Part shown: one piece after another, positions 17,291 through 45,556 of the stretch
Layout of the letters: each line of letters begins with the position of its first letter
How positions within the stretch are numbered: position 1 is the stretch's first letter
Assembly (NCBI GenBank): GCA_902622515.1
Contig: CACNQE010000013.1
Coordinates: 1-45,556 of the forward strand
DNA from: an uncultured SAR116 cluster alpha proteobacterium
Lineage (GTDB): Bacteria; Pseudomonadota; Alphaproteobacteria; Puniceispirillales; Puniceispirillaceae
Direction of reading: 5' to 3'
Length of the DNA: 45,556 nucleotides
Made by a program: the position numbers and the translations under genes
The notes under the pieces: generated by a model
Database searches by the model: none
Seen by the model: the letters and a program-made list of their open reading frames with translations, nothing else
What the model was told of the DNA's origin: nothing

Positions 17291-17318
17291 AAGAAGGCCA
17301 GCATTTGCCGGCCTTCTT
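17291..17318 (-). terminator. Intrinsic terminator of the NMT1/Tau-type ABC operon
   Basis: A perfect nine-base stem, AAGAAGGCC (17291-17299) with GGCCTTCTT (17310-17318), encloses a ten-base loop. Read on the minus strand it is followed by TATTTAT, and it begins about 20 bases after the solute-binding-protein stop codon. Confidence 0.85.
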
Positions 17319-17337
17319 ATTTGTAACCAATTTAGCT

Positions 17338-18402: not shown

Positions 18403-18446
18403 TTTTTCCTCCCATTTTGTTTTTGTTTTCGGTATCTGTGTAGGCA

Positions 18447-19322: not shown

Positions 19323-19324
19323 CT

Positions 19325-29111: not shown

Positions 29112-30131
29112 TCAAACGTAAAATAGATCTATTTCCTGCCCGTTTCTATTGATGGTATCTTTTTTTACTTTGTTTTGTTTGGAAAGATGATTTAAATGAG
29201 CTCTAGACTCTCCTGCAGCAAAAAATAATTCGTGGCTTTCGAAACGCTTATTAAATAATAAGTCTATTCCATCACTTACTGATAACGGTTTTTTTTGTGC
29301 ATTGGATAATAAGATTTCTAATCGTTGATTATGATGCCTAATTAAATCAAGTGCTCTTAGATTGCCATTTTTAAATGGCCAATCATGGCCTGGATAAATT
29401 CTTATTTCGGGGTCAAGAGTTGTCATATCTTCTAGATATTCTAAGTAATCGCCTAGAACATCTTTGTCTATATCTCTAATATCCGCTGATATATTGGGTG
29501 AGATTCTTGGTAGCAGAAAATCTGTTGGTAAAAAGAGTTTATCACGTTCATTAATAAAGGAAATCTGACCCGAACTGTGCCCACTGTCAATTCTGCATCG
29601 CCAATTACTTGATGTACCTTGTATAGTATCCTCTGCAGAAAAATTATTGAAATCTGGTAATTCGGGAACATAACGTTTATATCTAGAGGAGTCATTTCGG
29701 CCAAGTTCGATCTCTTCTAACGGAAGACCATATTTTGAGTAAATAGACACTAAGAGGTCTGAAAATTCAGAGAATGACATATTAAAGATAAACTGAGAAT
29801 GTTTCATTTCTGCTCTAGAAATATAGCATTTTGCCCCAGTCATGTTTGCCAATTCAGCTGCGAACCCTATGTGATCAACATGATGGTGAGTTATGATAAT
29901 TTTATCTATAGGTTTTGTAGAAAGCAAACCACTCAAGAGGGACTTCCAATATTTTTTAGTTTCCTCTCCATAAATGCCGGCGTCAACAATCACCCACCCG
30001 TCTTTTGTATCTATTATAAATAGATTAATATGATTCAGTCGAAATGGAAGTGGAAGCCTACCCCAATATAAATCTGGGCTAAGTTTTACTAGTTTATTTA
30101 CTTGGGGTAATTCTATTGGTAGCTGTTTCAT
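29112..30131 (-). CDS. MBL-fold metallo-hydrolase
   Basis: A 339-residue metallo-beta-lactamase-fold hydrolase. The dinuclear zinc site is complete: ITHHHVDHIGF (HxHxDH), the histidine in DSGHSSGQISF, the aspartate in LPTDFLLPRI and the last histidine in IYPGHDWPF. A C-terminal helical extension after the barrel (about 250-339) resembles that of LACTB2-like and related thioesterase members. It is divergent from the acyl-CoA dehydrogenase gene, so hydrolysis of a thioester or lactone in the same pathway is plausible. It converges on the DppF-like gene with a short gap and no clear terminator. The substrate is unknown. Confidence 0.88.
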   Translation of the reverse strand: MKQLPIELPQVNKLVKLSPDLYWGRLPLPFRLNHINLFIIDTKDGWVIVDAGIYGEETKKYWKSLLSGLLSTKPIDKIIITHHHVDHIGFAAELANMTGAKCYISRAEMKHSQFIFNMSFSEFSDLLVSIYSKYGLPLEEIELGRNDSSRYKRYVPELPDFNNFSAEDTIQGTSSNWRCRIDSGHSSGQISFINERDKLFLPTDFLLPRISPNISADIRDIDKDVLGDYLEYLEDMTTLDPEIRIYPGHDWPFKNGNLRALDLIRHHNQRLEILLSNAQKKPLSVSDGIDLLFNKRFESHELFFAAGESRAHLNHLSKQNKVKKDTINRNGQEIDLFYV

Positions 30132-30265
30132 TATTTTATCTAACTTGCGGAAAACAAAAGAGTAAAAATTTTATATTTTGAAATGCTAAGGATCAAAGAT
30201 GACTGCGTCAATTGCCGCTTTTATGATATAAGAAATAAAGACAGAGTTAAAAAGGTTAATTTGAA

Positions 30266-32047
30266 ATGTATACCCCACCAATTCAGGATCAAAAATTCGT
30301 TTTAGAATATTTAATTGGCTTTGATTCAATAGTTCAACAACTGAGCATGAACGGCCAGAAACCGGAAGAACTAGATAAAGACCTTATTTGGTCAATTTTG
30401 GATGAAGCTGGGAAATTTGCCAGCACTGTTTTAGCTCCAATTAACCACACAGGTGACCAACAAAATTCTACAATTACCGAAGAGGGATGCGTAAGAACTC
30501 CTGATGGTTTTAAAGAAGCTTATAGGGCCATGTGCGAAGCAGGTTGGACAACATTAGAGGCAAAAAGTGAGTGGGGTGGTCAGCAAATGCCCATGAGTGT
30601 AAGTGCAGCAGTATGTGAAATGTGGCATTCCGCAAATATGAGCTTTGCGCTTTGTCATCTTTTAAGTCAAGGACAAATATATGCTCTTCAGAAATCTGCA
30701 TCACAAGAACAGAAGGAAACGTATTTGCCTAATCTTATTTCTGGAAAATGGACAGGAACAATGAATTTAACAGAACCACAAGCTGGGACAGATTTATCAA
30801 AAATTAGAACGAAAGCAGTCCGAGAAGGGGACCACTATAAAATTTCTGGTCAGAAAATTTATATTACTTATGGTGAGCATGATATGGCAGAAAACATAAT
30901 CCATCTAGTGCTTGCAAGAACACCAAATGCACCAGAGGGTATTCAAGGAATTTCGCTATTTATTGTTCCTAAAATTTTATTGAAGAATGATGGTGGCCTC
31001 GATAAGCCAAATGACATTAGGTGCATTTCTATTGAGAAAAAACTTGGAATAAAAGGCTCGCCAACGGCTGTTCTGCAATATGGTGATAATGGTGGCGCTA
31101 TTGGTTATTTGGTCGGAGAGGAGAACAAAGGTCTAGAGATAATGTTTGGTATGATGAACCATGCTCGATTTAGTGTTGGTCTGCAGGGATTAGCGATTGC
31201 GGAGAGGGCGTATCAGAAAGCAGTCCTCTATGCAGAAACGCGAGTACAAGGCATTCCTATCGCAGCAGAAAAAGGTACACCAATTAATCAGCATCCAGAT
31301 GTTTTGAGATTATTATCTATAATGAGATCTGAAATAGATGCAATGAGGGCACTAATTTTTACAGGTGCGAATGCAATGGATATAGCGGATAATTGTGCGA
31401 AGGAAGTTTTTGAAAATGAGCAGAAAAGAGCTTCTGTTTTGATACCGATTATCAAGGGCTGGATAACTGAGCTCTCTGTATTGCATTGCTCAAGTGGTCT
31501 GCAAATTCACGGAGGTATGGGGTTTATTGAAGAAACAGGCGCTGCACAATATTTCCGTGACTCAAGAATCTTACCTATCTATGAGGGCACAACTGCTATT
31601 CAGGCAAATGATTTGATGTTTCGCAAAACCATAAGAGATGAGGGTCAGACAATTCGTCTTCTTATAGAAGAAATAGAAAAAGAAATGGAAGTAGTAGATG
31701 ATAAGTATTCAAAGCCTATATCCAATGCAATTGCGGACGTTATTTCTACTTTAGAAACATTATTATCAAAAGCCAATGATTCACGATATCTAGCCGCCAA
31801 CGGAGTAAATTGGTTAATGCAGCTTGGATATTTTTGTGGTGGATGGATGGCTGTTAAATCAGCGGATAGGGCAATAAAAAATGCTAACAGACTGCCAGAT
31901 GAGTTTGTTAAGTCAAAAATAATATGTGCGCAAATTTATCTCCAGCATAGTTTGCCTCATGTTAGAACCTATTCTAACGTAATAAATCATGAAGATAATT
32001 CGATTCTAAATATGGATGTTAACTGGCTGCATCGACGAACTGCATAA
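30266..32047 (+). CDS. Acyl-CoA dehydrogenase, DmdC-like large form
   Basis: A 593-residue FAD-dependent dehydrogenase, longer than the roughly 390-residue standard form. It has the FAD/substrate motifs TMNLTEPQAGTDLSKI and GDHYKISGQKIYITYGEHD, a second flavin-contacting region IHGGMGFIEETGAAQYFRDS, and the catalytic glutamate in LPIYEGTTAIQANDL. The N-terminal extension and the extra C-terminal helical domain match the group that includes DmdC, which oxidises methylmercaptopropionyl-CoA in DMSP breakdown, though the group also has other members. AAGG lies about 12 bases before the ATG. It begins a plus-strand set with MetY-like, alpha/beta hydrolase and FadN-like genes. The acyl substrate is not certain. 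Confidence 0.87.
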   Translation: MYTPPIQDQKFVLEYLIGFDSIVQQLSMNGQKPEELDKDLIWSILDEAGKFASTVLAPINHTGDQQNSTITEEGCVRTPDGFKEAYRAMCEAGWTTLEAKSEWGGQQMPMSVSAAVCEMWHSANMSFALCHLLSQGQIYALQKSASQEQKETYLPNLISGKWTGTMNLTEPQAGTDLSKIRTKAVREGDHYKISGQKIYITYGEHDMAENIIHLVLARTPNAPEGIQGISLFIVPKILLKNDGGLDKPNDIRCISIEKKLGIKGSPTAVLQYGDNGGAIGYLVGEENKGLEIMFGMMNHARFSVGLQGLAIAERAYQKAVLYAETRVQGIPIAAEKGTPINQHPDVLRLLSIMRSEIDAMRALIFTGANAMDIADNCAKEVFENEQKRASVLIPIIKGWITELSVLHCSSGLQIHGGMGFIEETGAAQYFRDSRILPIYEGTTAIQANDLMFRKTIRDEGQTIRLLIEEIEKEMEVVDDKYSKPISNAIADVISTLETLLSKANDSRYLAANGVNWLMQLGYFCGGWMAVKSADRAIKNANRLPDEFVKSKIICAQIYLQHSLPHVRTYSNVINHEDNSILNMDVNWLHRRTA

Positions 32048-32090
32048 AACTTCATGTTAGAAATAAATATTTAAATTAAGGGGTAATCCA

Positions 32091-33380
32091 TTGAGTAAAA
32101 AATATAATTTCGACACACTTAGTCTGCATGCTGGTCAAACACCTGATGAGGAGTTTGGCTCAAGGGCCGTTCCAATTCATCAAACTACTTCTTATGTTTT
32201 TCGTGATACGCGCCATGCTGCTGCCCTGTATAATATGGAGATTGGTGGACATTTATATTCTCGAATATCAAATCCAACTGTTGCTGTTCTAGAGCAGCGT
32301 GTTGCCGCTTTAGATGATGCAGTTGCGGCAACGGCTACAAGTTCAGGCATGGCTGCGTTATTTTCATCAATATTAACAGTTTGTTCAGCTGGTGATCATA
32401 TTGTTGCTTCTTCTCAACTATACGGCGCGAACGTAAATTTACTGAAATACACGCTTCCACGCTTTGGCATACATACAAGTTTTGTTGACCCAACAAATCA
32501 TTTTGAGGTCAAATCAGCAATAAAAGAAAATACTAAATTATTCTTTTCTGAAATTATAGGTAACCCAGGTCTTGTGGTTCTAGATGTTGATGCATTAGCA
32601 ACTATTTGCAAGGAGCATTCAATCTTATTTATGATTGATGGTACCTTTAATACCCCCTATTTAATGGCACCTGTAAAAAACGGTGTAAACATAATCATTC
32701 ATTCTCTTACAAAATGGATAGGTGGACACGGCGTAGCAATTGGTGGAGTAGTTGTTGATGGTGGAAATTTTGACTGGGGTAGTACAGATAAATATCCAAC
32801 CATCTCAGAACCACATTATGCTATGGATGGTATTAATTTTTATGAGGAGTTTGGTCCGGCCGCTTTTACAGCAAAGTTTCGGGCAGAGGCGATGTATAAT
32901 TTTGGGCCCTCACTCGCACCAATGAATGCATTTCATATTCTACAGGGTTTAGAAACTTTGCCTCTTAGGATGCAAAGACATATCGAAAATACTGAAAAAT
33001 TGCTTAAATTTTTGACAGCTCACGAACAGGTTTCATGGGTTCGTCATCCTTTTTTACCGGAGCATCCGCAATATAAATTAGCAAAAAAAATGCTTCCAAA
33101 GGGAGCTGGATCTATTATTACATTTGGGATAAAGGGCGGGCGTGATGCTGGAAGAAAATTTATTGAAGCCGTTTCACTATCGTCTCATCTCGCTAATGTC
33201 GGTGATGCAAAGACGCTTGTAATTCATCCTGCCAGCACAACTCATTCTCATATTGATGCGGATGCTATGAAATCTGCTGGACTTACAGATGATATGATAC
33301 GTTTATCTGTTGGTTTGGAAGATATATCTGATATTGTTTCGGATTTTGAACAAGGACTGAAGGCAGCAAGTAAGCTGTAG
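32091..33380 (+). CDS. O-acetylhomoserine (thiol)-lyase-like PLP enzyme (MetY family)
   Basis: A 429-residue Cys/Met-metabolism PLP enzyme. It starts with NFDTLSLHAGQTPDEEFGSR, has the YSRISNPTVAVLEQRVAALD region, SSGMAALFSSIL and the PLP lysine K208 in HSLTKWIGGHG. These match O-acetylhomoserine sulfhydrylases, which add sulfide or methanethiol to O-acetylhomoserine to give homocysteine or methionine. The start is TTG 32091, clearly preceded by AAGGGGTAATCCA. It sits between an acyl-CoA dehydrogenase and a hydrolase rather than with other methionine genes, which hints that it captures a thiol released by this catabolic route. No SAM riboswitch fits in the 43-base gap before it. Confidence 0.9.
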   Translation: MSKKYNFDTLSLHAGQTPDEEFGSRAVPIHQTTSYVFRDTRHAAALYNMEIGGHLYSRISNPTVAVLEQRVAALDDAVAATATSSGMAALFSSILTVCSAGDHIVASSQLYGANVNLLKYTLPRFGIHTSFVDPTNHFEVKSAIKENTKLFFSEIIGNPGLVVLDVDALATICKEHSILFMIDGTFNTPYLMAPVKNGVNIIIHSLTKWIGGHGVAIGGVVVDGGNFDWGSTDKYPTISEPHYAMDGINFYEEFGPAAFTAKFRAEAMYNFGPSLAPMNAFHILQGLETLPLRMQRHIENTEKLLKFLTAHEQVSWVRHPFLPEHPQYKLAKKMLPKGAGSIITFGIKGGRDAGRKFIEAVSLSSHLANVGDAKTLVIHPASTTHSHIDADAMKSAGLTDDMIRLSVGLEDISDIVSDFEQGLKAASKL

Positions 33381-33405
33381 TAAATGGATTTATTAGGATG
33401 GCTTC

Positions 33406-34194
33406 ATGAAATTAAATTTTAATAATCATTTAACATATCTCTCAACTGGAGGTAAAAATCCGTCATCTAAAGGTGAATCGCTTATTTTCTTGCCAGGGAG
33501 TGGTCAGACTCACCTTACTTTTGTTTTACAAACGCGTTTTTTTGCATTTGAGGGATATTCAATTTATGCCCCTGATTTTCCAGGGCATGGATATTCTTCT
33601 GGAAAACCACTAGAAACCATTGAAGAAATGGCAGATTGGGTTGCACAACTTATGAATTATTTTAAAATTCAGTCAGCCGTATTGATCGGTCATTCACAAG
33701 GTTGTCTTGTTACAATCGCACTTGCTCATAAATATCCTGAATTAGCGCAGAAACTCATTCTAATTGCTGGTGCATTACAAATCAGAGTTAATGATTATTT
33801 ATTAGAAAAATCAGCAAGTGCATTATCTGATGCTATATCAATGATGACTGAATGGGGTCATGGTAAAAATGGTCATTTTTTTTCCCCGTCGCAGCCAGGT
33901 CATTCTTTATTGGGTATTGGCAGGGAATTAATGATGTCGAATACACCAAAAGCATTAAATGCTGATTTGCGCGCTTGTAATCTATTTGATGCAACTAATT
34001 TTGCCTCAGAACTTGATTTGCCAGTTCTATGTATCCTTGCAAAAAGTGATAAAATGACACCAATAAATCTAGGCATTAAAATGGCTAATACTATAAAAGA
34101 CGCTAAATTTGTTGAGATAGCTAAATCCGGGCATATGATTCCTCTTGAAAAACCTGATGAAGTAAATTTAGAGATATTAAATTTTATTAAATAA
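33406..34194 (+). CDS. Alpha/beta hydrolase
   Basis: A 262-residue compact alpha/beta hydrolase. The oxyanion region is LIFLPGSGQTHLTF, followed by YAPDFPGHGYSSGKPL. The nucleophile is the serine in LIGHSQGCLVTIAL, the acid the aspartate in LAKSDKMTPINLG, and the base the histidine in SGHMIPLEKPDE. AGGATGGCTTC precedes the ATG. It is spaced 25 bases after the MetY-like gene and 26 bases before the FadN-like gene, so it belongs to the same set. It could be a thioesterase or an esterase on a beta-oxidation intermediate; this cannot be resolved here. Confidence 0.88.
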   Translation: MKLNFNNHLTYLSTGGKNPSSKGESLIFLPGSGQTHLTFVLQTRFFAFEGYSIYAPDFPGHGYSSGKPLETIEEMADWVAQLMNYFKIQSAVLIGHSQGCLVTIALAHKYPELAQKLILIAGALQIRVNDYLLEKSASALSDAISMMTEWGHGKNGHFFSPSQPGHSLLGIGRELMMSNTPKALNADLRACNLFDATNFASELDLPVLCILAKSDKMTPINLGIKMANTIKDAKFVEIAKSGHMIPLEKPDEVNLEILNFIK

Positions 34195-34220
34195 AAAGAG
34201 AAATTATTAAAGGCATAAAA

Positions 34221-36551
34221 ATGGTAAACTCTAAAAAGCATTTTCAAAAAATTGCAGTATTAGGTGCTGGTACAATGGGCAGCGGCATCGCTGCCCAGAT
34301 TGCAAATGCAGGATTAGATGTGATGCTTATTGATTTAGCAGCTGAGGATAAAAATGCTATCTCTCCTGCAGAATTAGCAGTTCAGAGGCTCATTAATTCA
34401 GACCCACCGCAGCTTGTTTCAAAGCGAGTATCAAACCAAATAAAAACTGGAACGTTCGAATATGACCTAAATAAATTAAGCGACTATGACTGGGTAGTTG
34501 AGGCGGTGGTTGAACGACTTGAAGTCAAAAAATCAATTTATGCGCGTTTAAACAAAATAATAAAGCGAGATTGCATCGTAACATCGAATACATCCTCTAT
34601 TCCAATTTCATTATTAATGGAGGATATGGATATAGCCTTCCAAGAACGTTTTGCGATTACCCATTATTTTAATCCTGTTCGATATATGCGCTTGTTAGAA
34701 TTAGTTGTTGGAGAGCATACCAAAAGTGATGTTGTTGATAAACTTGCTGAATTCAATGATGTTATACTTGGTAAAGGAGTAATCAGGTGTAATGATACAC
34801 CAGGGTTTCTTGGTAATCGTCTTGGTGTTTATGCTATGCAAGTCGGCCTTAATGAGGCGTTAAAACGAAACATCCCCTTTGATGATGCAGACGCCATTCT
34901 TGGTAGGCCTATGGGTGTGCCAAAGACTGGAGTTTTTGGATTATATGATTTGATTGGTATAGATTTGATGTCAGATGTTGTTGCGTCAATGAGTGAAATT
35001 TTGCCAGAACAAGATGATTTTCAAAAAGTTGGTACAGATCCTGAACTTATTACTTCGCTTATAAATTCTGGTTATACAGGACAAAAAGGACTTGGTGGCT
35101 TTTACTTAGAAAGTAGTGGCGGAAGAAAGGTCAGAGATTTATCAAAGGAAGATGGCGAACTTATTCAATGGCGGGATATTAATCCATTACCAGAGATAGC
35201 AGAAAAAGCAGCAAAAGCCCAAAATGAACAAGATGAAGCACTATTAGTATTAATTGAGGATGATAGTGAATATGGCCGGTTTGCCTGCTCTGTATTGGCG
35301 CATATCTTTTGTTACGCAGGCCAGTTATTAGGAACAATTACTTCCAACCCTCAGGATATTGATGATGCAATGAAATTAGGGTTTAACTGGCAACGTGGTC
35401 CCTTTGAGATGATTGATGCTATTGGGCAAAAGCTTCTTTACAAATTAATCAGCGACGCGGGTCTTTCATTTCCTCAAAATCTAAAAACTGATACTCCTTT
35501 TTATTGTTTGGAAAATAATACTATATCGGTACTTCATGCTTTTGAAGGGTATATTCCAGTCAGTCTACCCCAGGGCTCTTTTAGGCTCCAAATTTTGAGA
35601 CGCACACTTCCAATACTTGAACAAAATAATGATGCCACTTGTTATGAGATAGAAAAGAATATGCGCCTAATTGAATTTCATTCAAAAGCTAATGCGTTGC
35701 GTCCTGGAACAGTTGATATATTAAAATATGCTGCCCACAATGCAGGAACTGGCCTAATCATACATAATGATTTTCAACATTTCTCGGCAGGTGTAGATTT
35801 GAATCACTTTAGGTTTTTAATAGAAAACAAAAATTGGGAGGAAATAGATCTATTTCTAAAAGAGTTTCAGGGAGTTGTAACCCAACTCAAATATTTACCA
35901 GTACCGGTTATTGGTGTGCCATCAGGTCTTGCCATAGGTGGAGGATTCGAAGTTCTGGCGCATTGCGATGCGCTTGTAGCACACGTTAATTCGACATTTG
36001 GTTTGGTGGAATCTGGGGTCGGTTTGTTGCCAGCAGGTGGAGGTGTCAAACAAAGTTATTTACGTTGGTTTGAGAAAACAAATGATTGGGATGAAGCTGC
36101 ATGGCAGTGTTGGATGCAAATAGGGTATGGTAAAGTTGGTACATCTCCGGATATGTCATCAAAATATCAATATTTCTTGCCGGATAGAGATTTACAAGTA
36201 ATGAACAAGGATAGATTGTTTGAACAGGCAGTTTCTCTAAATATTGACCTTCAGAAAACATACGCACCGCCTAAAAAACCAGTTTTTAAATTGGCAAATT
36301 CAATTTTACGTAAAAAAATGTACAAGTTTATGAAAAAGGGCGTCCAGGACGGAATATTTACGCCTCATAATTTCACGACTGCTATGGCGATTGCAGACGT
36401 GATTGTTGCGAAGGAAGGCGAGAGCCAATCTGCTACAGAACAAGATATATTTGACAGAGAGCGCTTAAATTTTATAAATCTTGCAAAAACGCCTCAGACT
36501 TTAGGTCGAATTTGTTCATTGCTCGACTCTGGAACAGCTGAGCAGAATTAG
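34221..36551 (+). CDS. 3-hydroxyacyl-CoA dehydrogenase / enoyl-CoA hydratase fusion, FadN-like
   Basis: A 776-residue protein with an NAD-binding 3-hydroxyacyl-CoA dehydrogenase first (IAVLGAGTMGSGIAAQIANA; substrate region SNTSSIPISLL and AITHYFNPVRYMRLLELV; helical part with NDTPGFLGNRLG) and a crotonase domain at the end (IHNDFQHFSAGVDLNHF, GVPSGLAIGGGFEVLAHCD, FGLVESGVGLLPAGGG). This order is that of FadN of Bacillus, the reverse of FadB. It performs the hydration and second oxidation of beta-oxidation. AAAGG lies 8 bases before the ATG. It converges on the acyl-CoA ligase gene. Chain length and substrate cannot be told. Confidence 0.9.
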   Translation: MVNSKKHFQKIAVLGAGTMGSGIAAQIANAGLDVMLIDLAAEDKNAISPAELAVQRLINSDPPQLVSKRVSNQIKTGTFEYDLNKLSDYDWVVEAVVERLEVKKSIYARLNKIIKRDCIVTSNTSSIPISLLMEDMDIAFQERFAITHYFNPVRYMRLLELVVGEHTKSDVVDKLAEFNDVILGKGVIRCNDTPGFLGNRLGVYAMQVGLNEALKRNIPFDDADAILGRPMGVPKTGVFGLYDLIGIDLMSDVVASMSEILPEQDDFQKVGTDPELITSLINSGYTGQKGLGGFYLESSGGRKVRDLSKEDGELIQWRDINPLPEIAEKAAKAQNEQDEALLVLIEDDSEYGRFACSVLAHIFCYAGQLLGTITSNPQDIDDAMKLGFNWQRGPFEMIDAIGQKLLYKLISDAGLSFPQNLKTDTPFYCLENNTISVLHAFEGYIPVSLPQGSFRLQILRRTLPILEQNNDATCYEIEKNMRLIEFHSKANALRPGTVDILKYAAHNAGTGLIIHNDFQHFSAGVDLNHFRFLIENKNWEEIDLFLKEFQGVVTQLKYLPVPVIGVPSGLAIGGGFEVLAHCDALVAHVNSTFGLVESGVGLLPAGGGVKQSYLRWFEKTNDWDEAAWQCWMQIGYGKVGTSPDMSSKYQYFLPDRDLQVMNKDRLFEQAVSLNIDLQKTYAPPKKPVFKLANSILRKKMYKFMKKGVQDGIFTPHNFTTAMAIADVIVAKEGESQSATEQDIFDRERLNFINLAKTPQTLGRICSLLDSGTAEQN

Positions 36552-36591
36552 TATAACTTTTTTCAAAATTTACTATTATTAGTTTCGAATT

Positions 36592-38241
36592 TTATTCAGA
36601 AGACTTCAATGATTGGCGAAGTATGTATTTCTGGATTTTACCAGTTGACGTTTTGGGAATTTCCTGAAAAATCACTGTTTTTGGTGTTTTAAACCCCGCC
36701 AAATGTTGGCGACAGAACGAGATAATTTCTTCTTCTGTAGCTGAGGTGTTTGGTTTCATCTCAACAAAAGCACAAGGCGTTTCCCCCCATTTTTCGTCTT
36801 TTTTGGCAACTACTGCAGCAAAAGCAATATTCTCATGTCGATAAAGAACATTCTCAAGTTCAACAGAAGAGATGTTCTCACCTCCGGATATAATAATATC
36901 TTTTAATCTATCTTTAATTTCTACATAGCCAGATTTATGACGAACGGCTAAATCACCTGACCTAAAAAAATCATCAGCTAAGCTGTCTTCAGTAGCTTTT
37001 CGGTTTTTATGGTAGCCTTTCATAATTGTATTTGAGCGAACAACAATTTCTCCTATTGTTAATCCATCAGCTGGAACGGGTTTATTAGTATCTCGGTCAA
37101 GAACATCTACTAATTCAGTATGGGTGAATTGCACACCTTGTTGCGCTTTTATGATTGCTTGCTCAGCAAATTCAAGGATATCCCATTTATCTTGCCATAC
37201 GCATTGCACAACATGGCCATAGGTTTCTGTTAAGCCGTAAACCTGCATCACGTCAAATCCTAATGCCTCAATTTTTTGTAAAATTGCAGCTGGAGGTGGA
37301 GCGCCTGCGGTCATCACTTGAACTGGCCATTTCGGTTTGAACTGAATTTCCTTTCGCGCGTTGACAAGCATACCTAAAATAATAGGAGCTCCTCCAAAAT
37401 GGGTTACGTTATGTTTTTGGATAAGGGAAAAAATTGTTTCTGCAGTAAGCTGGCGTGTACAGATCACCTTTCCTGCAAGTAAACCCATCATCCAAGCGTG
37501 TCCCCACCCATTACAGTGAAACATTGGAACAGTATATAAGTACGTTGGATGCATCTGCATCTGCCATGCAGGTATTGTACCCATTGCCATTAGATAAGCA
37601 CCACGATGATGATAAACAACACCTTTAGGCAGTCCACCTGTTCCAGATGTATAATTTAGACATATCGCATCCCATTCATCATCAGGAAGCTGCCAATTAA
37701 ATTTGCCATCTCCTAATTCAATTAATTGCTCATAAGTATATTGGCCAATTGGAGTTGCTGAAACACTAGAGCTATCTTGTTTGTCAATTATATCAATTAT
37801 TTTAAAATCAGTATATTTTGATTGTTTTAATGCCTTTGAGATAACATCTGAGAAACCGGTATCTGAAATCAGGATTCTAGGTTCTGCATGTTCAAAAATG
37901 TAGGCAATAGTATCGGCATCAAGCCTAATATTAACTGTATTTAAGACGCCTCCAGCCATTGCAACTGCAAATTGACATTCAAACATTTCAGGTGTATTTG
38001 CTGCAATTACCGTTACCACTTCTCCTTTCTTTAATCCAATTTGCTGTAAACCAGATGCAAGTCTTATGCATCTATCATAGGTCTCATGCCATAGATATTC
38101 TCTATTTCCGTAAATCAAAGAAACCATATTGGGGTAAAGATTACAGGTGCGTTCCAAAAAAGATACAGGGCTCAGTGGGACATAATTAGCCTTTCGTTTG
38201 GACATAAATGCTGCATTAATTTCATCGATATTTTTTGCCAT
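36592..38241 (-). CDS. AMP-dependent acyl-CoA synthetase
   Basis: A 549-residue ANL-superfamily ligase that activates a carboxylic acid through an acyl-adenylate to its CoA thioester. The P-loop is LNYTSGTGGLPKGVVYHHRG, the adenine region MQVYGLTETYGH, the aspartate in FFRSGDLAVRH and the hinge KDIISGGENISS are all visible, with the catalytic lysine near the end in KTSTGKIQKYILR. The N-terminal PLSPVSFLERTCNLYPN and HETYDRCIRLASGLQQIGL are typical of the broad medium-chain or aromatic-acid group and do not resemble DmdB. AGGAAAATAC precedes the ATG. It converges on the FadN-like gene and is divergent from soeABC. It supplies the CoA ester for the neighbouring beta-oxidation enzymes. Confidence 0.9.
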   Translation of the reverse strand: MAKNIDEINAAFMSKRKANYVPLSPVSFLERTCNLYPNMVSLIYGNREYLWHETYDRCIRLASGLQQIGLKKGEVVTVIAANTPEMFECQFAVAMAGGVLNTVNIRLDADTIAYIFEHAEPRILISDTGFSDVISKALKQSKYTDFKIIDIIDKQDSSSVSATPIGQYTYEQLIELGDGKFNWQLPDDEWDAICLNYTSGTGGLPKGVVYHHRGAYLMAMGTIPAWQMQMHPTYLYTVPMFHCNGWGHAWMMGLLAGKVICTRQLTAETIFSLIQKHNVTHFGGAPIILGMLVNARKEIQFKPKWPVQVMTAGAPPPAAILQKIEALGFDVMQVYGLTETYGHVVQCVWQDKWDILEFAEQAIIKAQQGVQFTHTELVDVLDRDTNKPVPADGLTIGEIVVRSNTIMKGYHKNRKATEDSLADDFFRSGDLAVRHKSGYVEIKDRLKDIIISGGENISSVELENVLYRHENIAFAAVVAKKDEKWGETPCAFVEMKPNTSATEEEIISFCRQHLAGFKTPKTVIFQEIPKTSTGKIQKYILRQSLKSSE

Positions 38242-38301
38242 GTATTTTCCTGAAAAATTAAAATTACTTTTTCTAAGATGATGGTTTAAATTCTTTTTTA
38301 C

Positions 38302-38318
38302 TTCAATATAAAATTGAA
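38302..38318. promoter_or_regulatory. Short inverted repeat between the acyl-CoA ligase and soeA genes
   Basis: TTCAAT-N5-ATTGAA is a symmetric repeat in the divergent promoter region between the ligase (minus) and soeA (plus). It may be an operator for either gene. The match to no named family was recognised, and the region is AT-rich, so chance is possible. Confidence 0.25.
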
Positions 38319-38460
38319 AATAGAGTTTTCTTATAATTTATGTATATGTTATCTTTGGTTTCTTGTTAAAATACATTTAGTGATTTTATTTAAACAAGAG
38401 TAGTAAAACTCAAATAGGTTGATAAAGAACGATTTAGCTTTGTCAGAGGGAAATGCAGAG

Positions 38461-41286
38461 ATGGCAAAAGCTGGTTATAAACAGCCAGAAATTGAACTTT
38501 CAAAATCAATTTCAGACGAAATAAAAACAACAACATGCTATATGTGTGCGTGTCGATGCGGTATAAAGGTATATTTAAAAGATAACAAAGTAAAATATAT
38601 TGAAGGTAATCGAGACCATCCAGTGAATAAAGGAGTATTATGTGGTAAAGGTGCCGCAGGAATTATGCAACATTATTCACCTGCCCGACTAAAAGCACCG
38701 CTTAAAAGAGTTGGTCCTCGTGGCTCAGGAGAGTTTGAAGAAATAAGTTGGGATGAAGCGCTAACTTTAGCGACTTCATGGCTTTCTGAAATCAGAAACA
38801 ATGACCCAAGAAAAATGGCTCTTTTCACTGGAAGAGACCAAAGCCAAGCCTTAACAGGATGGTGGGCATCACAATTTGGTACACCAAATTTTGCAGCTCA
38901 TGGAGGTTTTTGTTCGGTAAATATGGCTGCAGCAGGATTACACACTTTTGGCGGTTCATTCTGGGAATTTGGCGAGCCTGATTGGGATTTAACGGAATAT
39001 TTTATGCTTTGGGGCGTTGCAGAAGACCATGCCTCTAACCCAATTAAAAAAGCTATTGGTAAGCTAAAAAAAAGAGGTGTCAAAATCACAGTAATTAATC
39101 CAATTAGAACTGGTTATGGGGCCGTTGCTGATGAATGGATTGGAATTAAACCTGGAACAGATGGTTTGTTTGCAGGTGCATTAATACATCAGTTGCTGGT
39201 AAATCAGGCCGTTGATATTGATTATCTGCAACGTTATACCAATGCCACTTGGCTAGTTATAAATTCACCGGGGGCAGAGGATTTAGGTTTAATTGCAAGA
39301 GATGATGAAGGAAATCCATTAGCTTTTGATATTGTCGAAAGCTCTCTAATTAACGCTAATCAAAAATCGTCAAATCATGCACTACATGGCGAGTATACTT
39401 TACCAGACGGAAGGAAAGCTACTCCTTCGTTTTCTTTAATTGCAAATCGTTTTTTATCAGAAGAATATTCTCCTAAATCGGTAAGTATTAAAACAGGTGT
39501 GGCGGCAGAAACCATAATTCGGATTGCAGATGAGTTAGCAAAAACAGCATTTGAAAAAGAACGTCGTATTAAGCAGGAATGGACTGACTGGAATGGTGTT
39601 CAACACAGCGAGTTCATAGGAAGACCTGTCTCCATGCATGCAATGCGAGGAATATCGGCTCACTCGAATGGTTTTAACAGCTGCAGGATAATTCATTATC
39701 TACAAATATTACTCGGGGCGATTGATTGTCCTGGTGGATTTAGATACAAGCCACCATTCCCAAAAGCTGTTCCACCAGCTTTGCGTCCTGCTGGGAAATT
39801 AGAAGATGTTCGTCCTGGAGAACCAATGCCAGGAGCACCATTAGGGTTTGTGACATCTCCGGCTGATTTGCTCGTAGACCATGAGGGTAATGCGCTGAGA
39901 ATTGACAATGCTTATTCTTGGGAAGCACCATTTTCTGCACACGGTTTAATGCATATGGTAATTCATAATGCAGCCAATAAAAAGCCATATAATTTGGAAC
40001 TACTATTTTTATATATGGCAAACATGGGTTGGAACTCTTCGATGGATATCCCAGAAACATTGAATAATCTTACAAAAATAAATCCTGAAACTGGTGAATA
40101 TGCTATACCAAGAATTATATATTCAGATGCTTATTATTCTGAAACCATCGCTTATGCGGATCTAATTCTTCCGGATACAACTTATCTGGAGAGATGGGAT
40201 GCTATATCTTTGTTAGATCGACCCATTTCTGAACCCAATGCTGCTATTGATGCAATAAGAAACCCTGTTGTAGAACCTGACAGAGATGTACGACCTTTTC
40301 AAACAGTACTTATTGAATTGGGTGCGCGCCTCGGACTTCCAGGTATGACAAATAATGATGGTAGCCCAAAATATAATGATTATGCTGACTACATTATTAA
40401 CCATGAAAGAGGTAACGGTATAGGTACTTTAGCTGGCTGGCGCGGAGAAGATGGGGAACAAGTTGGTGTAGGTTCTCCAAATAAAGATCAATTAAAAAGA
40501 TATCAAGAAAATAATTGTTTTTTTTCTAACGCTGTCCCGTCAAACGCGCGCTATTTTAAGCATGCAAATAGGAGTTATCTTAAATGGGCTAAATCACAGG
40601 GATTTATAAATTCTACAAAACCAATCATATTTGAATTATATAATGAGGCACTGCAGAAATTTAGATTATCAGCAGATGGAAAATTTGAACCAAAAGTCCC
40701 TAGGTTGCATCAAAAAAGAATATCGTCATATTTTGATCCAATTGCATTTTGGTATCCACCGTTAGAAGAGAGCAAGCTTGATGGAGAACGATATCGATTT
40801 CATGCGATAAGTCAGAGGCCAATGCACATGTATCATTCCTGGGGTTCACAGAATGCTTGGTTACGTCAAATATCAAATTCAAATAAACTATACATGAATA
40901 GAAAAAGAGGGACTGAATTAGCTCTTAAAGATGATGATTGGATTGAAGTATCTAGTCATATAGGAAAAGTATTATGTCAGGTAAAATTAATGTCTGGGTG
41001 TCAGATTGATACTGTATGGACATGGAATGCTATCGGAAAAAGAGCAGGGGCATGGGGACTAAATAAGGAATCTCCTGAGTTTCGAAAAGGGTTTCTTTTG
41101 AACCATTTAATTTCGGCTCTTTTGCCAGAAAAAGAAGGAGGGTTTCACTACAGCAATTCAGATCCTATTACGGGTCAAGCTGCGTGGTATGATTTAAAGG
41201 TCCATATACAAAAGGCAAAACCGTCAAATAATCAGCGTTCGGAGCCTTATTTTTTACCTATTACTGCAAATATTAAAAGAAAGTAA
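38461..41286 (+). CDS. soeA: SoeA-like sulfite dehydrogenase (quinone), molybdopterin catalytic subunit
   Basis: A 941-residue cytoplasmic molybdoenzyme. The [4Fe-4S] ligands are C26, C29, C33 and C61 (TCYMCACRCG and VLCGKG), in the CX2CX3CX27C spacing of the PsrA/PhsA/SoeA group. HGGFCSVNMAAAGLHTFGGS, GRDQSQALTG and INPIRTGYGAVADEWIGI match my recollection of SoeA of Roseobacter and purple sulfur bacteria, which oxidises sulfite to sulfate and gives electrons to quinone. No twin-arginine leader is present, as expected for SoeA and unlike PsrA or DmsA. ATG 38461 follows GAGGGAAATGCAGAG; the TTG at 38419 lacks a site. The three genes together give near-typical Soe sizes. The assignment is strong but rests on motif memory, not alignment. 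Confidence 0.87.
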   Translation: MAKAGYKQPEIELSKSISDEIKTTTCYMCACRCGIKVYLKDNKVKYIEGNRDHPVNKGVLCGKGAAGIMQHYSPARLKAPLKRVGPRGSGEFEEISWDEALTLATSWLSEIRNNDPRKMALFTGRDQSQALTGWWASQFGTPNFAAHGGFCSVNMAAAGLHTFGGSFWEFGEPDWDLTEYFMLWGVAEDHASNPIKKAIGKLKKRGVKITVINPIRTGYGAVADEWIGIKPGTDGLFAGALIHQLLVNQAVDIDYLQRYTNATWLVINSPGAEDLGLIARDDEGNPLAFDIVESSLINANQKSSNHALHGEYTLPDGRKATPSFSLIANRFLSEEYSPKSVSIKTGVAAETIIRIADELAKTAFEKERRIKQEWTDWNGVQHSEFIGRPVSMHAMRGISAHSNGFNSCRIIHYLQILLGAIDCPGGFRYKPPFPKAVPPALRPAGKLEDVRPGEPMPGAPLGFVTSPADLLVDHEGNALRIDNAYSWEAPFSAHGLMHMVIHNAANKKPYNLELLFLYMANMGWNSSMDIPETLNNLTKINPETGEYAIPRIIYSDAYYSETIAYADLILPDTTYLERWDAISLLDRPISEPNAAIDAIRNPVVEPDRDVRPFQTVLIELGARLGLPGMTNNDGSPKYNDYADYIINHERGNGIGTLAGWRGEDGEQVGVGSPNKDQLKRYQENNCFFSNAVPSNARYFKHANRSYLKWAKSQGFINSTKPIIFELYNEALQKFRLSADGKFEPKVPRLHQKRISSYFDPIAFWYPPLEESKLDGERYRFHAISQRPMHMYHSWGSQNAWLRQISNSNKLYMNRKRGTELALKDDDWIEVSSHIGKVLCQVKLMSGCQIDTVWTWNAIGKRAGAWGLNKESPEFRKGFLLNHLISALLPEKEGGFHYSNSDPITGQAAWYDLKVHIQKAKPSNNQRSEPYFLPITANIKRK

Positions 41287-41323
41287 GTGTAATCGCTTTT
41301 TAAATTTTTTTTGGAGAACTTTT

Positions 41324-42088
41324 GTGACTGATTTGCCTTCTGGAACTGATAAAAAACTTGGTTTACTAATTGACCTTGACATTTGTGTTGGCTGTCATGG
41401 GTGCGTTACAAGTTGCAAGGAATGGAATAGTACAGATGATGATTTACCATTGTCTGATTTCGATTCCTATGGTGAGGCTCCAGATGGGATATTTCTTAAT
41501 AGAGTCCATGGATATGAAACTGATGATGGCATTTTAAGTCAAACAGTGCATTTTCCACGTTCTTGCTTACATTGTGAGCAGCCAGAATGTGTCACTGTTT
41601 GTCCAACCGGTGCTAGCTATAAAAGGCAAGAGGATGGTATTGTTCTAGTAAATCCAGAAACATGCATAGGATGTAAACTATGTTCTTGGGCTTGTCCATA
41701 TGGAGCGCGGGAATATGACCATAAACAAGGTATAATGAAGAAATGTACTTTGTGCGTAGACCGAATATATAATGAGGAACTTGAAGAAGAAGATAGAAAA
41801 CCCGCATGTGTTCTAGCCTGTCCCACAAGTGCGAGATTATTTGGTGATTTTTCTGATCCTCAAAGTGATGTATCAATATTATCTGAAAAGCGTGGTGGTG
41901 TAGCACTTATGGATAATTTGGGATATAAACCAGTTAACAGATATCTGCCACCAAGAAAAAAACATATAACAAGTGAACAAAATTCTAAAAATAATGCTAA
42001 TTTGCAAAAGTTTTCTGATTTAAAGCCAAGTAATGCTAATTCAAAGCTTGAAGAATTTTTTTCGTGGCTAGATCAGAAACTATCATGA
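41324..42088 (+). CDS. soeB: SoeB-like iron-sulfur subunit
   Basis: A 254-residue ferredoxin-type electron carrier with four [4Fe-4S] motifs: CVGCHGCVTSCKEWN (C21, C24, C27, C31), CLHCEQPECVTVC, CIGCKLCSWACPYGAREY and CTLCVDRIY with CVLACPTSAR. This is the DmsB/SoeB arrangement that passes electrons from the molybdenum subunit to the membrane subunit. The start is GTG 41324, with GGAGA seven bases upstream. It lies 37 bases after soeA and 61 bases before soeC, so it is in the same operon. The C-terminal ~70 residues are lysine-rich with no recognised fold. Confidence 0.9.
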   Translation: MTDLPSGTDKKLGLLIDLDICVGCHGCVTSCKEWNSTDDDLPLSDFDSYGEAPDGIFLNRVHGYETDDGILSQTVHFPRSCLHCEQPECVTVCPTGASYKRQEDGIVLVNPETCIGCKLCSWACPYGAREYDHKQGIMKKCTLCVDRIYNEELEEEDRKPACVLACPTSARLFGDFSDPQSDVSILSEKRGGVALMDNLGYKPVNRYLPPRKKHITSEQNSKNNANLQKFSDLKPSNANSKLEEFFSWLDQKLS

Positions 42089-42149
42089 AACTAAATATTT
42101 TTAGAAGTAGAATTAAAATTTCTATTTTCAGAGCGATGGAGCATGCTTC

Positions 42150-43112
42150 TTGAGCCCGGCTTATTCTATAATTTTTTTTACTGTTTTTTCAGGAGCAGGC
42201 TATGGCCTTTTAGCTATAATTAGTTTGACTACCCTTACGAGTTTGTTACCTGATTCTACATTGCTTAATTTAATTATGTTAATTCTTTCTCTGTTGTTAA
42301 TTTCTGTGGGACTCTTATTTTCTACTACTCATTTGGGACATCCTGAGAGAGCATGGAGAGCTATGTCACAATGGAAGACATCTTGGTTATCTAGAGAGGG
42401 ATTGCTTGCCCTAATAACATATGTGCCAGCATTGTTGCTCTGCGTTATTTGGACAGCTATGTTAATCCAATCATTTTCATCTCAAAGCATCAATGAATTA
42501 GAAAATTATGTAGCGTTGATTGGAGGGGTTTGTGGATTATGTGCAATCTCAACGGTTTTTTGTACAGGGAAGATATACGCTTCTCTTAAGACTATACCTG
42601 CATGGAATTATTTTCTCACAACGCCAATTTTTTTCTTACTTTCGATTGTGAACGGACTTTTACTGTGGATATTTTTTAATTGTGTTTTTAGCTATAAAGT
42701 AAATAACTTTGTAGTCTTATTCAGTGTATTTATGCTAGGGGCAGCGTTTCTATTGAAATGGGTATATTGGAACTTTGTAGATCAGGTAAAGTTTAGTGTT
42801 ACAAAAGCTGAAGCCATAGGATTAGAAAAAAATACTACAGTACAAAATTTAGAACCAGCACATCAAACACAAAATTATCTAATGAGAGAGATGGGATATA
42901 ATGTTGCTCGCAAACATGCCTTGAAATTGCGTTGGTTTGCTTCTTGGGCAGCCTTTATTATTCCTGGGATTTGTTTGTTAGTTGGAGTTACAGATTCCTC
43001 ATACATGCCAATAACTAGTTTTATTGCTTTATTATGTCTAATAGTGGGGCTTATTATTGAAAGATGGTTGTTTTTTGCAGAGGCGAAACATGTTATCACG
43101 CTTTATTATTAA
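42150..43112 (+). CDS. soeC: SoeC-like membrane anchor (DmsC/NrfD-like fold)
   Basis: A 320-residue integral membrane protein with about eight hydrophobic segments. The N terminus SPAYSIIFFTVFSGAGYGLLAI and STTHLGHPERAWRAMSQWKTSWLSREG are characteristic of SoeC/DmsC membrane anchors, which hold the A and B subunits at the inner face of the membrane and pass electrons to quinone. The start is TTG 42150, preceded by ATGGAGCATGCTTC. The ATG inside that site opens only a five-codon frame. The stop is convergent with the DUF4198 gene. With soeAB it completes the sulfite dehydrogenase complex. Confidence 0.88.
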   Translation: MSPAYSIIFFTVFSGAGYGLLAIISLTTLTSLLPDSTLLNLIMLILSLLLISVGLLFSTTHLGHPERAWRAMSQWKTSWLSREGLLALITYVPALLLCVIWTAMLIQSFSSQSINELENYVALIGGVCGLCAISTVFCTGKIYASLKTIPAWNYFLTTPIFFLLSIVNGLLLWIFFNCVFSYKVNNFVVLFSVFMLGAAFLLKWVYWNFVDQVKFSVTKAEAIGLEKNTTVQNLEPAHQTQNYLMREMGYNVARKHALKLRWFASWAAFIIPGICLLVGVTDSSYMPITSFIALLCLIVGLIIERWLFFAEAKHVITLYY

Positions 43113-43173
43113 AAATTGAATTTTCTATACTTTATGTGCGCCAATTTATTTTACAAATTTTTTCATTTTTACA

Positions 43174-43998
43174 TCAATCTGATTTAAGAGTGGCAGATGC
43201 CCACAGGGATTCCCAAATTGCTCCTTCAGGATTTGAGGTTGGTTCAATTTTCCGAATTATAACAGAATCAATTAAATAGCTCATGTCTGGAAAAGTGCTT
43301 AAAGTAAAAATACCATTTTTATCTGTTCTGGCTAATGATTTTTTTACTTTCCCAGCATTATTTTTTGAAAAAATAGTAACCTGTGAATTTGGGTGTGGTA
43401 TCCCTTTGTAGTAAAGAGAAAAAGAAATGTTCTTACTTATGTTGAAGGGTAAATCAGTATCTTCCATTACCCATTCAAATTCCATTCCAGAATACCTATC
43501 TTTCCCACTACTGTTTTGAACAGAAATAAAGCTTTTAGAAAAGCGCGTATACGTCTCTTTAAATCCTTTTTTAGGAAGATTTAGAGACAAATGCTGGCTT
43601 TGTATTTCTGGGAAACCTTTCTCTTCTGTAAAATTTATAAACTTTTGAAAATCATTATATGTGAGGTAGGTAGGGGACGACTGATATAAAATCACAGATA
43701 AACCCTTATGAAGGGGAATGAGATTTAAGGCTGGACGATCACCAATTCTACCATTTACCTTTTGACTGTCATTCTGGTACAGCACTTCGAATCTTGAAAA
43801 GTTATTTTTCATATAAGGATTTTCATACCCAGAGAAATCTTGACCAACAAAAAGTGAGGCGCTGAGAACATCGCCTATATTAAGCTTATATTTTTTTGGC
43901 TCTATCCAAAATTCATGTGCTAAGATTGGATAGCTAATTATGCAAAATACAGATGAAATAGTTGCAAAAATTGACAGTTTTTTATATAAGCGTTTCAT
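43174..43998 (-). CDS. DUF4198-family periplasmic protein
   Basis: A 274-residue secreted protein. The N-terminal leader LYKKLSIFATISSVFC, with a hydrophobic stretch ending near ILA, is a Sec signal. The mature protein begins HEFWIEPKKYKLNIGD, the hallmark of DUF4198, a family often linked to metal uptake and found near cobalt/nickel transport genes. Later parts are beta-rich (VTIFSKNNAGKVKKSLARTDKNGIFTL). It is divergent from the HupE/UreJ-like gene by only 33 bases, so the two share a promoter region. It may bind a metal for that transporter. Function is not established for the family. Confidence 0.8.
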   Translation of the reverse strand: MKRLYKKLSIFATISSVFCIISYPILAHEFWIEPKKYKLNIGDVLSASLFVGQDFSGYENPYMKNNFSRFEVLYQNDSQKVNGRIGDRPALNLIPLHKGLSVILYQSSPTYLTYNDFQKFINFTEEKGFPEIQSQHLSLNLPKKGFKETYTRFSKSFISVQNSSGKDRYSGMEFEWVMEDTDLPFNISKNISFSLYYKGIPHPNSQVTIFSKNNAGKVKKSLARTDKNGIFTLSTFPDMSYLIDSVIIRKIEPTSNPEGAIWESLWASATLKSD

Positions 43999-44031
43999 AA
44001 AATCGTCCTCTCACTACCAAAAAAACGGGTC

Positions 44032-45228
44032 ATGTTAAACTCGATGGCTAATCTATCCAGCTCATTTTTTTTTATACGGCATTTCTTTTTATTAATTGTT
44101 TGCATCATAACCCTAACTTTGGGTGTAGGCCAGCGCTCTTTTAGTCACGAGATTTCACCTGCAATTGCTGAATTATCGATTAAAGAAAACACTGTTGAAA
44201 TCGATTTTTATTTTTCGGTTGAGATATTTTTGGCAGATATTGATGCTTCAATAATTACTGATACAAACGAAACCAATAAATCAGAAGTTTATGATGAACT
44301 CAGAGCAAGAGATAGCACTGAGATTGAAACTATATTTAAAAGCAAATTTAACACGTTTGCTGATTTAATTACTGTAAAATCAGAACAAGAAATGCTTCAA
44401 GTGAAGTTTTTAGATATAAAAGTGTCTGAAAATAGAGATGTCACAATTCCAAGAGAAAGTAAAATCACACTAGCTGTTGCAACCAAAACAGATGATGTGA
44501 AAATCATCTTTGGTTGGGATAAAAAACTTGGTCCATTAATCGTTAGGCAAGTATCAGAAGAGGACTATACAACTCAGAATGATAAAGAATACGATTTGTA
44601 TTCGGCTTATTTGTCTCCAGGGGAGTTAAGCGCGCCTATTGTTCGTGGTGGGGTTTTGCCGGTTGCTTCAGTTGACATAATAAAAAGTTATTTAGTTATT
44701 GGTTTTGAACACATTATTCCTAAAGGACTTGACCATATATTATTTGTGCTTGGTTTATATTTATTTGCAACGAAAATATCCCAATTAATTTTGCAGGTCT
44801 CAATATTTACAATAGCACATACCATAACACTTGCTATGGCAAGTCTAGGCTATGTTAAAGTACCTGCAATTATTGTAGAACCTCTCATAGCGCTGTCAAT
44901 TAGTTACGTAGCTCTCGAAACCTTGTGGCATACAAAAATAGGATTGTCACGTTTACTCATAATTTTTGGCTTTGGACTACTTCACGGGCTCGGGTTTGCT
45001 TCAGTTTTGATGGATATAGGACTCAATTCGAAACATTTTATCACTGGATTAATTTCGTTTAACATTGGTGTAGAGTTCGGACAATTAGCGGTTATATTAA
45101 CCGCCTATGTAGCAATAGGAATTACTTTTTCAAAAACTCGATTTTATAGGTCTTTTATCCAAATTCCATTATCACTGATTATAGCTTCAATAGGTGGTTG
45201 GTGGTTTGTTGAACGGATATTTCTTTGA
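44032..45228 (+). CDS. HupE/UreJ-type membrane protein (HupE/UreJ_2)
   Basis: A 398-residue protein with a signal-like leader (residues ~15-40, ending near SFSHE), a periplasmic beta-rich part (about 40-220) and a C-terminal membrane domain of about six segments. The membrane part has GLDHILFVLGLYLF, FTIAHTITLAMASLG, LLHGLGFASVLMD and SFNIGVEFGQLAVIL, the histidine-bearing motifs of HupE/UreJ nickel- or cobalt-linked transporters. It is divergent from the DUF4198 gene, a common partner. No urease or hydrogenase gene lies in the window. The ATG at 44032 has only a weak ribosome site, and ATG 44044 is an alternative. Metal transport is likely, the metal unknown. Confidence 0.85.
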   Translation: MLNSMANLSSSFFFIRHFFLLIVCIITLTLGVGQRSFSHEISPAIAELSIKENTVEIDFYFSVEIFLADIDASIITDTNETNKSEVYDELRARDSTEIETIFKSKFNTFADLITVKSEQEMLQVKFLDIKVSENRDVTIPRESKITLAVATKTDDVKIIFGWDKKLGPLIVRQVSEEDYTTQNDKEYDLYSAYLSPGELSAPIVRGGVLPVASVDIIKSYLVIGFEHIIPKGLDHILFVLGLYLFATKISQLILQVSIFTIAHTITLAMASLGYVKVPAIIVEPLIALSISYVALETLWHTKIGLSRLLIIFGFGLLHGLGFASVLMDIGLNSKHFITGLISFNIGVEFGQLAVILTAYVAIGITFSKTRFYRSFIQIPLSLIIASIGGWWFVERIFL

Positions 45229-45251
45229 AGTCTGGCAATTATAAATAATAA

Positions 45252-45278
45252 AAAAGGGGTGAAATTTTCACCCCTTTT
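45252..45278. terminator. Bidirectional intrinsic terminator
   Basis: A near-perfect palindrome: GGGGTGA (45256-45262) pairs with TCACCCC (45268-45274) around AATTT, flanked by an A-run and a T-run. It lies between the convergent HupE-like and DUF1127 genes and can serve both. Confidence 0.88.
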
Positions 45279-45308
45279 CGCAAACGCGCAAGTTTAGGGA
45301 GGAAATAA

Positions 45309-45512
45309 CTATGCGGCGTTTTCGTTCTTAGAGTTACTGTTAGCAAACATTTTATCAGCAACAAATTCTGGTATTTGACCTCTGACAATTCCAATGTCTG
45401 ATAATGTACTATCGTCAAGACCATTTAGCGCACGACATGTATTTGAAAATTCAAGCCATGATACAAATTTTGAGACGATTATATTATTTTTTAAATTATT
45501 TATAACGGACAT
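45309..45512 (-). CDS. DUF1127 small protein
   Basis: A 67-residue protein carrying the DUF1127 motif in its middle: SNTCRALNGLDDSTLSDIGIVRGQI, matching the family's ...L..L.D..L.DIG..R..I pattern. Such short proteins are common in alphaproteobacteria; some take part in phosphate, RNA or stress responses, but this one has no assigned role. The ATG at 45512 is preceded by ATGGAGAAAAA, a strong ribosome site. It is followed by a bidirectional terminator. The flanking arm residues (MSVINNLKNNIIVSKFVSWLE) are not usual for the shortest members. Confidence 0.82.
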   Translation of the reverse strand: MSVINNLKNNIIVSKFVSWLEFSNTCRALNGLDDSTLSDIGIVRGQIPEFVADKMFANSNSKNENAA

Positions 45513-45556
45513 TTTTTCTCCATATTACAACCTAATAGAAAAGTGGGTTTATATAA

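Follow-up and report, generated by a model that had tools for sequence, protein, structure and literature searches.

The window analysed here, a stretch of 45,556 nucleotides that forms the whole of contig C13 (CACNQE010000013.1) in a 2.11 Mb, 95% complete genome of an uncultured SAR116 alphaproteobacterium (GCA_902622515.1), very probably encodes SoeABC, a predicted cytoplasm-facing, membrane-bound sulfite:quinone oxidoreductase. A sequence-only reading of the same DNA had placed SoeABC at 38461-43112, and in this it stands: three consecutive plus-strand open reading frames (ORFs) in adjacent A-B-C order span the interval, carry the Pfam domains of the three subunits and are intact by their ratios of nonsynonymous to synonymous substitution rates (dN/dS).

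38461-41286, plus strand: SoeA, predicted catalytic subunit with molybdenum bis-pyranopterin guanine dinucleotide (Mo-bisPGD) and 4Fe-4S sites, no twin-arginine translocation (Tat) motif (PF00384, PF04879, PF01568; clade support 100/99; dN/dS 0.128)
41324-42088, plus strand: SoeB, predicted Fe-S subunit with 16 cysteines (Fer4-type domains; dN/dS 0.108)
42150-43112, plus strand: SoeC, predicted membrane anchor of the DmsC/NrfD family with eight predicted helices (PF04976, 77.6 bits; dN/dS 0.356)

Subunit anatomy and family placement

Pfam recognises the Molybdopterin, Molybdop_Fe4S4 and Molydop_binding domains in SoeA, and both DmsC (77.6 bits) and NrfD (32.5 bits) in SoeC, in which eight hydrophobic segments can be counted from the sequence. 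The ORF list starts SoeA at a TTG (38419), and an ATG at 38461 is found in all six aligned rows from the window's genus. Five cysteines of SoeA (C26, C29, C33, C61 and C151) are invariant across 56 aligned rows and include those for the 4Fe-4S cluster and one at the Mo-ligand position, while SoeB holds four clusters' worth. The alignment to 2vpw points to C151 as the probable Mo ligand. The first 60 residues of SoeA contain no RR, as befits a Tat-less, predicted cytoplasmic A subunit, and, as judged by dN/dS against the sister genome G005, all three genes are intact and under purifying selection. In such a complex SoeA would convert toxic sulfite to sulfate, SoeB would relay the electrons through its Fe-S clusters and SoeC would hand them to the quinone pool; sulfite as the substrate and quinone as the acceptor we infer from the family.

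The family itself is read from a tree of 22 rows, 11 of SoeA type and 11 others, in which all rows of SoeA type fall into a single clade (100/99), separate from DmsA, YnfE, YnfF, NapA, NarG, FdnG, TtrA and four other proteins of the order Puniceispirillales; the A subunit thus does not group with another molybdoenzyme, the outcome that the sequence-only reading had named as fatal to itself. Searches by score and by fold are less particular. No NCBIfam model is reached over its cut-off by SoeA (top model PhsA, 205.5 bits against 694), its top match in a PDB sequence search is 2vpw, a thiosulfate/polysulfide reductase (123.5 bits), and the predicted model (mean predicted local distance difference test score, pLDDT, 80.8) has ArrA, PcrA and PsrA as its nearest Foldseek neighbours among the 50 matches listed. 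These matches are at the superfamily level: as far as sequence and modelled structure go, they fit the superfamily and say nothing on substrate.

Several observations weigh against this explanation. The 22-row tree included no biochemically characterised SoeA, those of Allochromatium vinosum, Aquifex aeolicus and Ruegeria pomeroyi being absent from its sequences, and the name SoeABC therefore rests on clade, anatomy and gene context. Several reference rows of the tree are on long branches, and L177 and L178 are incomplete sequences. In a second, 54-row SoeA tree, the SoeA of the genus lies on a long stem (0.40). At residues 161, 407, 508, 529, 762 and 896, counted from the ATG at 38461, each of the six genus rows departs from a residue that is invariant in the remaining 50, as compared with zero to three such changes in seven control clades. 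None of the six genus genomes read has a desulfonation neighbour of SoeABC, and 64 of 80 named loci have no taurine-type homologues in the stretch covered. These loci are the best 80 of 583, and all 80 entered the neighbour count; 34 of them, picked by hand, joined 20 rows of the order in the 54-row tree, and 32 of the 80 are in A2. L139 and L140 were left out altogether.

Sulfonates as a possible sulfite source

Where the sulfite comes from is the next question. The sequence-only reading proposed catabolism of organic sulfur and suggested seeking a desulfonating enzyme near the importer in the full genome, and the models searched in that genome brought none to light: TauD and the SuyB-type PF20629 had no match, Xsc reached 253 bits against a cut-off of 676.4, CuyA-type proteins 26.7 against 289.4 (R. 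pomeroyi CuyA, as a control, scores 331) and SsuD 47.8 against 518.2. The motif CXH-X15..30-CXXH is absent from the window and from the scanned loci of the same genome, which cover a small part of it, and no genome-wide search for MsmA was made. Since no PF01077 sulfite/nitrite reductase domain exceeds its cut-off in any of ten genus genomes, sulfite is probably oxidised or exported, and this absence is consistent with the incomplete sulfate assimilation that the accessible part of PMC3368413 describes for two SAR116 strains. Candidate sources in the genus would be an SsuD-like monooxygenase or SuyAB, which some sister genomes have, MsmA and a persulfide dioxygenase; methanethiol oxidase was considered and set aside, PF05694 occurring in only one of the ten genomes (G009, with 7% contamination).

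The prospects that SoeABC is fed by an SsuD-like, MsmA or SuyAB enzyme that the assembly or the searches missed are, in our judgement, a little short of even. The assembly is 95% complete, and of the closest relatives of the window's SoeA, that of G015 lies in an msm-type operon and that of G037 beside taurine-type genes. The accessible text of PMC12262181 assigns either SsuD or MsmA to SAR116 subclade I, and SsuD-like proteins occur in seven of the ten genus genomes, the window's own not among them; these score only 227-239 bits against the SsuD cut-off of 518.2, are also present in the SoeA-less genomes G003 and G006, and are reduced to a weak partial match in the SoeA-bearing G002. They belong to the luciferase-family monooxygenases and are exemplified by L168:1774-2955 in G005, which scores 239 bits with the SsuD model and 149 with that of SfnG, both below cut-off. 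Operons of suyAB type are likewise found in G007 and G006, the latter without SoeA, and none of the five desulfonation models is reached in the window's genome.

Outside the genus, relatives pair SoeABC with different desulfonation modules, which by their gene content are of methanesulfonate, taurine and sulfolactate type. Genes of methanesulfonate and sulfolactate type, in such relatives and in sister genomes of the genus, are at these places:

L105:13157-16735 and L106:912-7667 (G015): MsmA-type Rieske/reductase fusion, beta subunit and ferredoxin before SoeABC
L180:7820-11372 (G007) and L181:6862-10384 (G006): suyA-suyB-sulfolactate-dehydrogenase-type operon that includes a putative exporter of the YeiH family, in sister genomes
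L182:8871-9630 (G002): suy remnant, in a sister genome
L021:1-2185 (metagenome-assembled genome, MAG, of Rhodobacteraceae): SuyB relative, 84.6% identity

In G015 SoeA is immediately preceded by three genes, for a Rieske alpha/reductase fusion carrying CXH-X26-CXXH, for a beta subunit and for a Rieske ferredoxin; PMC4433239 gives this motif as the MsmA signature. After SoeABC the same genome carries a second MsmA-like protein, which lacks the motif. Homologues of Xsc, Tpa, Pta or TauR lie near SoeABC in seven of the 11 genomes of the order that were read beyond the genus (G037, G025, G035, G030, G010, G022 and G043), Xsc itself in three, and 16 of the 80 named loci, whose stretches differ in length, have at least one homologue of Xsc-, Tpa-, Pta-, TauR- or alanine-dehydrogenase type; the Tpa- and TauR-type names are given by context, because NCBIfam labels these proteins AptA and PdxR. 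In L021 the SuyAB-type genes lie about 8 kb from SoeABC, and the identity of its SuyB to that of the sister genomes hints at a recent transfer. The name SuyB rests on gene order, since the top NCBIfam model, galactarate dehydratase, is far below its cut-off (141.7 against 730.85). The dehydrogenase of G007 and G006 has L-sulfolactate dehydrogenase as its top model (178.7 bits, cut-off 500), and their YeiH-family protein is 42% identical to R. pomeroyi CuyZ.

As far as the gene order of the six genus genomes goes, the SoeABC of the genus itself stands apart from any desulfonation module. Sulfite derived from organic sulfur thus finds backing in the msm, taurine-type and sulfolactate-type neighbours of relatives, and is already in print for SAR116 (PMC12262181, in its accessible text), and finds none in the models searched in the window's genome, MsmA not having been sought genome-wide. 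A general organosulfur role of SoeABC is plausible.

Persulfide as a possible sulfite source

Alternatively, sulfite might arise mainly from persulfide: a persulfide dioxygenase would turn sulfane sulfur derived from cysteine or dimethylsulfoniopropionate (DMSP) into sulfite, for SoeABC to remove. We regard this as unlikely, if not without support. A protein of the window's genome matches the persulfide dioxygenase 4ysk at 381 bits and is a putative enzyme of this kind. The same protein is matched at 77.6 bits by a chain named persulfide dioxygenase ETHE1, falls short of the NCBIfam Blh model (392.9 against 625), and is followed in the next ORF by a DUF6691 membrane protein. Its homologues are present in nine of the ten genus genomes, including all seven that bear SoeA, and lie divergent beside SoeA in two of the 80 named loci (L032:2836-3872 and L066:8968-10001); across 136 genomes of the order, however, the presence of the dioxygenase is not associated with that of SoeA (p 0.86), and family f4 has the dioxygenase in 35 of 58 genomes and SoeA in none. 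Two DmdA-like proteins are present but remain below the DmdA cut-off of 410 (380.7 and 379.0), and methanethiol oxidase is absent from nine of the ten genus genomes.

Distribution and history across the order

With presence defined by profile A1 at E <= 1e-100, SoeA occurs in 63 of the 136 order genomes and in seven of the ten from the window's genus, and Xsc exceeds its cut-off in 46 of the 136 and in none of the ten. Of the genomes that bear SoeA, 41 of the 56 from other genera have Xsc (counting fragments), as against none of the seven inside the genus (Fisher p 0.0003), the four Xsc fragments having been tallied both ways; because the genomes are related, its absence from the genus may reflect a single loss. 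An overall association of SoeA with Xsc (p about 1e-10) was dropped as evidence of coupling, because it is driven by differences between families: f4 has neither gene in any of its 58 genomes, and within f1-f3 minus the genus the odds ratio is 0.91 (p 1.0).

The 54-row tree places the genus together with G015 and G037 (support 99), beside Paracoccaceae-type rows (92), G015 SoeA being the closest outside the genus at 68% identity; 14 other order rows fall in a separate clade (100) together with four named rows, and a named SAR116 single cell, L039, takes a third position. This scatter agrees with PMC12262181, which, as far as its accessible text goes, states that soeA moved by horizontal transfer. 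One could go further and picture SAR116 SoeABC as a portable sulfite-disposal cassette, re-paired lineage by lineage with modules for methanesulfonate, taurine or sulfolactate, which in the window's genus, after the loss of Xsc, came to serve on its own as a sink for sulfite from persulfide, its SoeA having shifted (the long stem and the six changed residues), a proposal that we hold to be decidedly doubtful.

A DMSO reductase by name

Earlier SAR116 papers name similar genes as a DmsABC-type dimethyl sulfoxide (DMSO) reductase, which would reduce DMSO and not oxidise sulfite (PMC3368413 and PMC8547437, in their accessible parts), and the DmsC family of the SoeC anchor and the top NCBIfam model of SoeB (DMSO_dmsB, 138.7 bits, cut-off 214.1) speak for it; it is nevertheless highly improbable here, as the A subunit lies outside the clades of DmsA, YnfE and YnfF, scores 122 bits against a cut-off of 777.7 with the DmsA/YnfE model, and lacks the twin-arginine motif that Escherichia coli DmsA has.

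Keeping to SoeABC, we can reconsider a published name. The accessible part of PMC8547437 places msmA near 'dmsABC' in the genus of IMCC1322. In G015, where one other molybdoenzyme was read, a PsrA-like gene sits beside small genes that by eye resemble nitrile hydratase and not beside dmsBC, so that the published 'dmsABC' is most likely SoeABC. Single molybdopterin oxidoreductases beside three small nitrile hydratase/thiocyanate hydrolase-like genes, again by eye, are seen at L178:3-3397 (G015) and L177:2-3247 (G034).

Neighbouring and other sulfur-type genes of the window

The window had been described as rich in organic-sulfur genes, and an importer, a PF01925 protein and MetY do exist in it:

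6611-7372, minus strand: membrane protein of the TSUP family (TauE/SafE; PF01925, 90 bits)
17338-20137, minus strand: ABC importer of the Tau/Ssu/Nrt superfamily (Pfam; below all curated taurine, sulfonate and nitrate cut-offs)
32091-33380, plus strand: MetY, O-acetylhomoserine sulfhydrylase (PRK08134, 638.8 over 636; TIGR01326, 564.5 over 495.1)
36592-38241, minus strand: acyl-CoA ligase of PRK08162 type, divergent from SoeA, a conserved genus neighbour outside the complex (NCBIfam 798 bits, cut-off 677; synteny)

Their link to sulfonates holds less well. The importer, described earlier as of Tau/Ssu type, misses every curated cut-off for taurine, sulfonate or nitrate: its permease has TauC as the top model (127.9 bits, cut-off 342), its ATPase SaoA (250, cut-off 360), and its binding protein has no NCBIfam match at E 1e-10 and in the PDB only a weak one, to a bicarbonate transporter chain. 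Across 15495-20137 the importer is followed on the same strand by two genes of the glutathione S-transferase (GST) family, and its substrate may be unrelated to sulfonates. The TSUP protein lies 31 kb from SoeA amid hydrolase genes, and a comparison with the other loci fetched gives it no relative at E 1e-8. MetY, cast earlier as a partner in organosulfur catabolism, is by its model scores an enzyme of homocysteine and methionine synthesis and not a desulfonating one, and it does not share an operon with SoeABC, because the acyl-CoA ligase next to SoeABC is transcribed divergently from it. Nor does MetY appear to have a riboswitch, as Rfam yields no match in the window and none at a loose threshold in 29900-45556.

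The order MetY, alpha/beta hydrolase, FadN-like, acyl-CoA ligase, SoeABC and DUF4198 is kept in G002, G004, G005, G007 and G008, and HupE also where the stretch read in these five extends to it. No taurine-type homologue was found near SoeABC in the same five genomes, and no genus neighbour falls into a cluster with genes from the 80 named loci. A link to DMSP through these neighbours was tried and rejected. For the acyl-CoA dehydrogenase, the matches to DmdC (6ijc, 420.1 bits) and to a probable acyl-CoA dehydrogenase (8png, 411.3 bits) are of similar strength. For the ligase, a match of 254.2 bits to a long-chain ligase stands against 224.6 and 221.9 to the DmdB entries 6ihk and 6ijb; no DmdBC claim is made. 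In the accessible text of PMC12262181, dmdA is missing from SAR116 subclade Ib.III, a group that is possibly the window's genus.

Significance and relation to known systems

SAR116 is abundant in the surface ocean, where sulfite oxidation ties organic sulfur to respiratory energy. The genus keeps SoeABC in seven of ten genomes and has Xsc over cut-off in none, and soeABC alone should not be read as a sign of taurine or sulfonate use. If the 'dmsABC' beside msmA is SoeABC, as the comparison suggests, a claim of DMSO reduction would give way to sulfite oxidation within a methanesulfonate operon. The accessible text of PMC12262181 already describes SoeABC in SAR116 together with its horizontal transfer and a sulfonate source; measured against a targeted literature search, what is added here is the absence of Xsc from the genus, the msm-soe order in G015, for which the name dmsABC is probably mistaken, and an operon of suyAB type in two sister genomes.

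Among known systems, E. coli DmsABC resembles the window's SoeABC in its architecture of Mo subunit, Fe-S subunit and DmsC-family anchor, and differs in its separate clade and in the twin-arginine leader of DmsA, which SoeA lacks. The SoeABC complexes known from R. pomeroyi (SPO3557-3559), A. vinosum and A. aeolicus (PMC4334477 and PMC8076601, in the parts available) share, by description, the same make-up, a Mo/4Fe-4S A subunit, a B subunit with four 4Fe-4S clusters and a C subunit of NrfD/DmsC type, as well as a predicted cytoplasmic A subunit. R. pomeroyi soeCBA adjoins pta and lies near tauR (PMC4334477, accessible part), whereas the window's SoeABC has no such neighbour; similarly, the msm-type operon of G015 sets MsmA-type Rieske, beta-subunit and ferredoxin genes directly before SoeABC, and the window's has none alongside. 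A further known system is the SoeABC of SAR116 subclade I, for which sulfite oxidation has been predicted with SsuD or MsmA as the source and a horizontally transferred soeA (PMC12262181): the order (by inference), the enzyme and the statement on transfer are the same. The main text of that paper, so far as it was available, makes no mention of taurine, xsc or persulfide, and the genus of the window lacks Xsc, which 46 of 136 genomes of the order possess.

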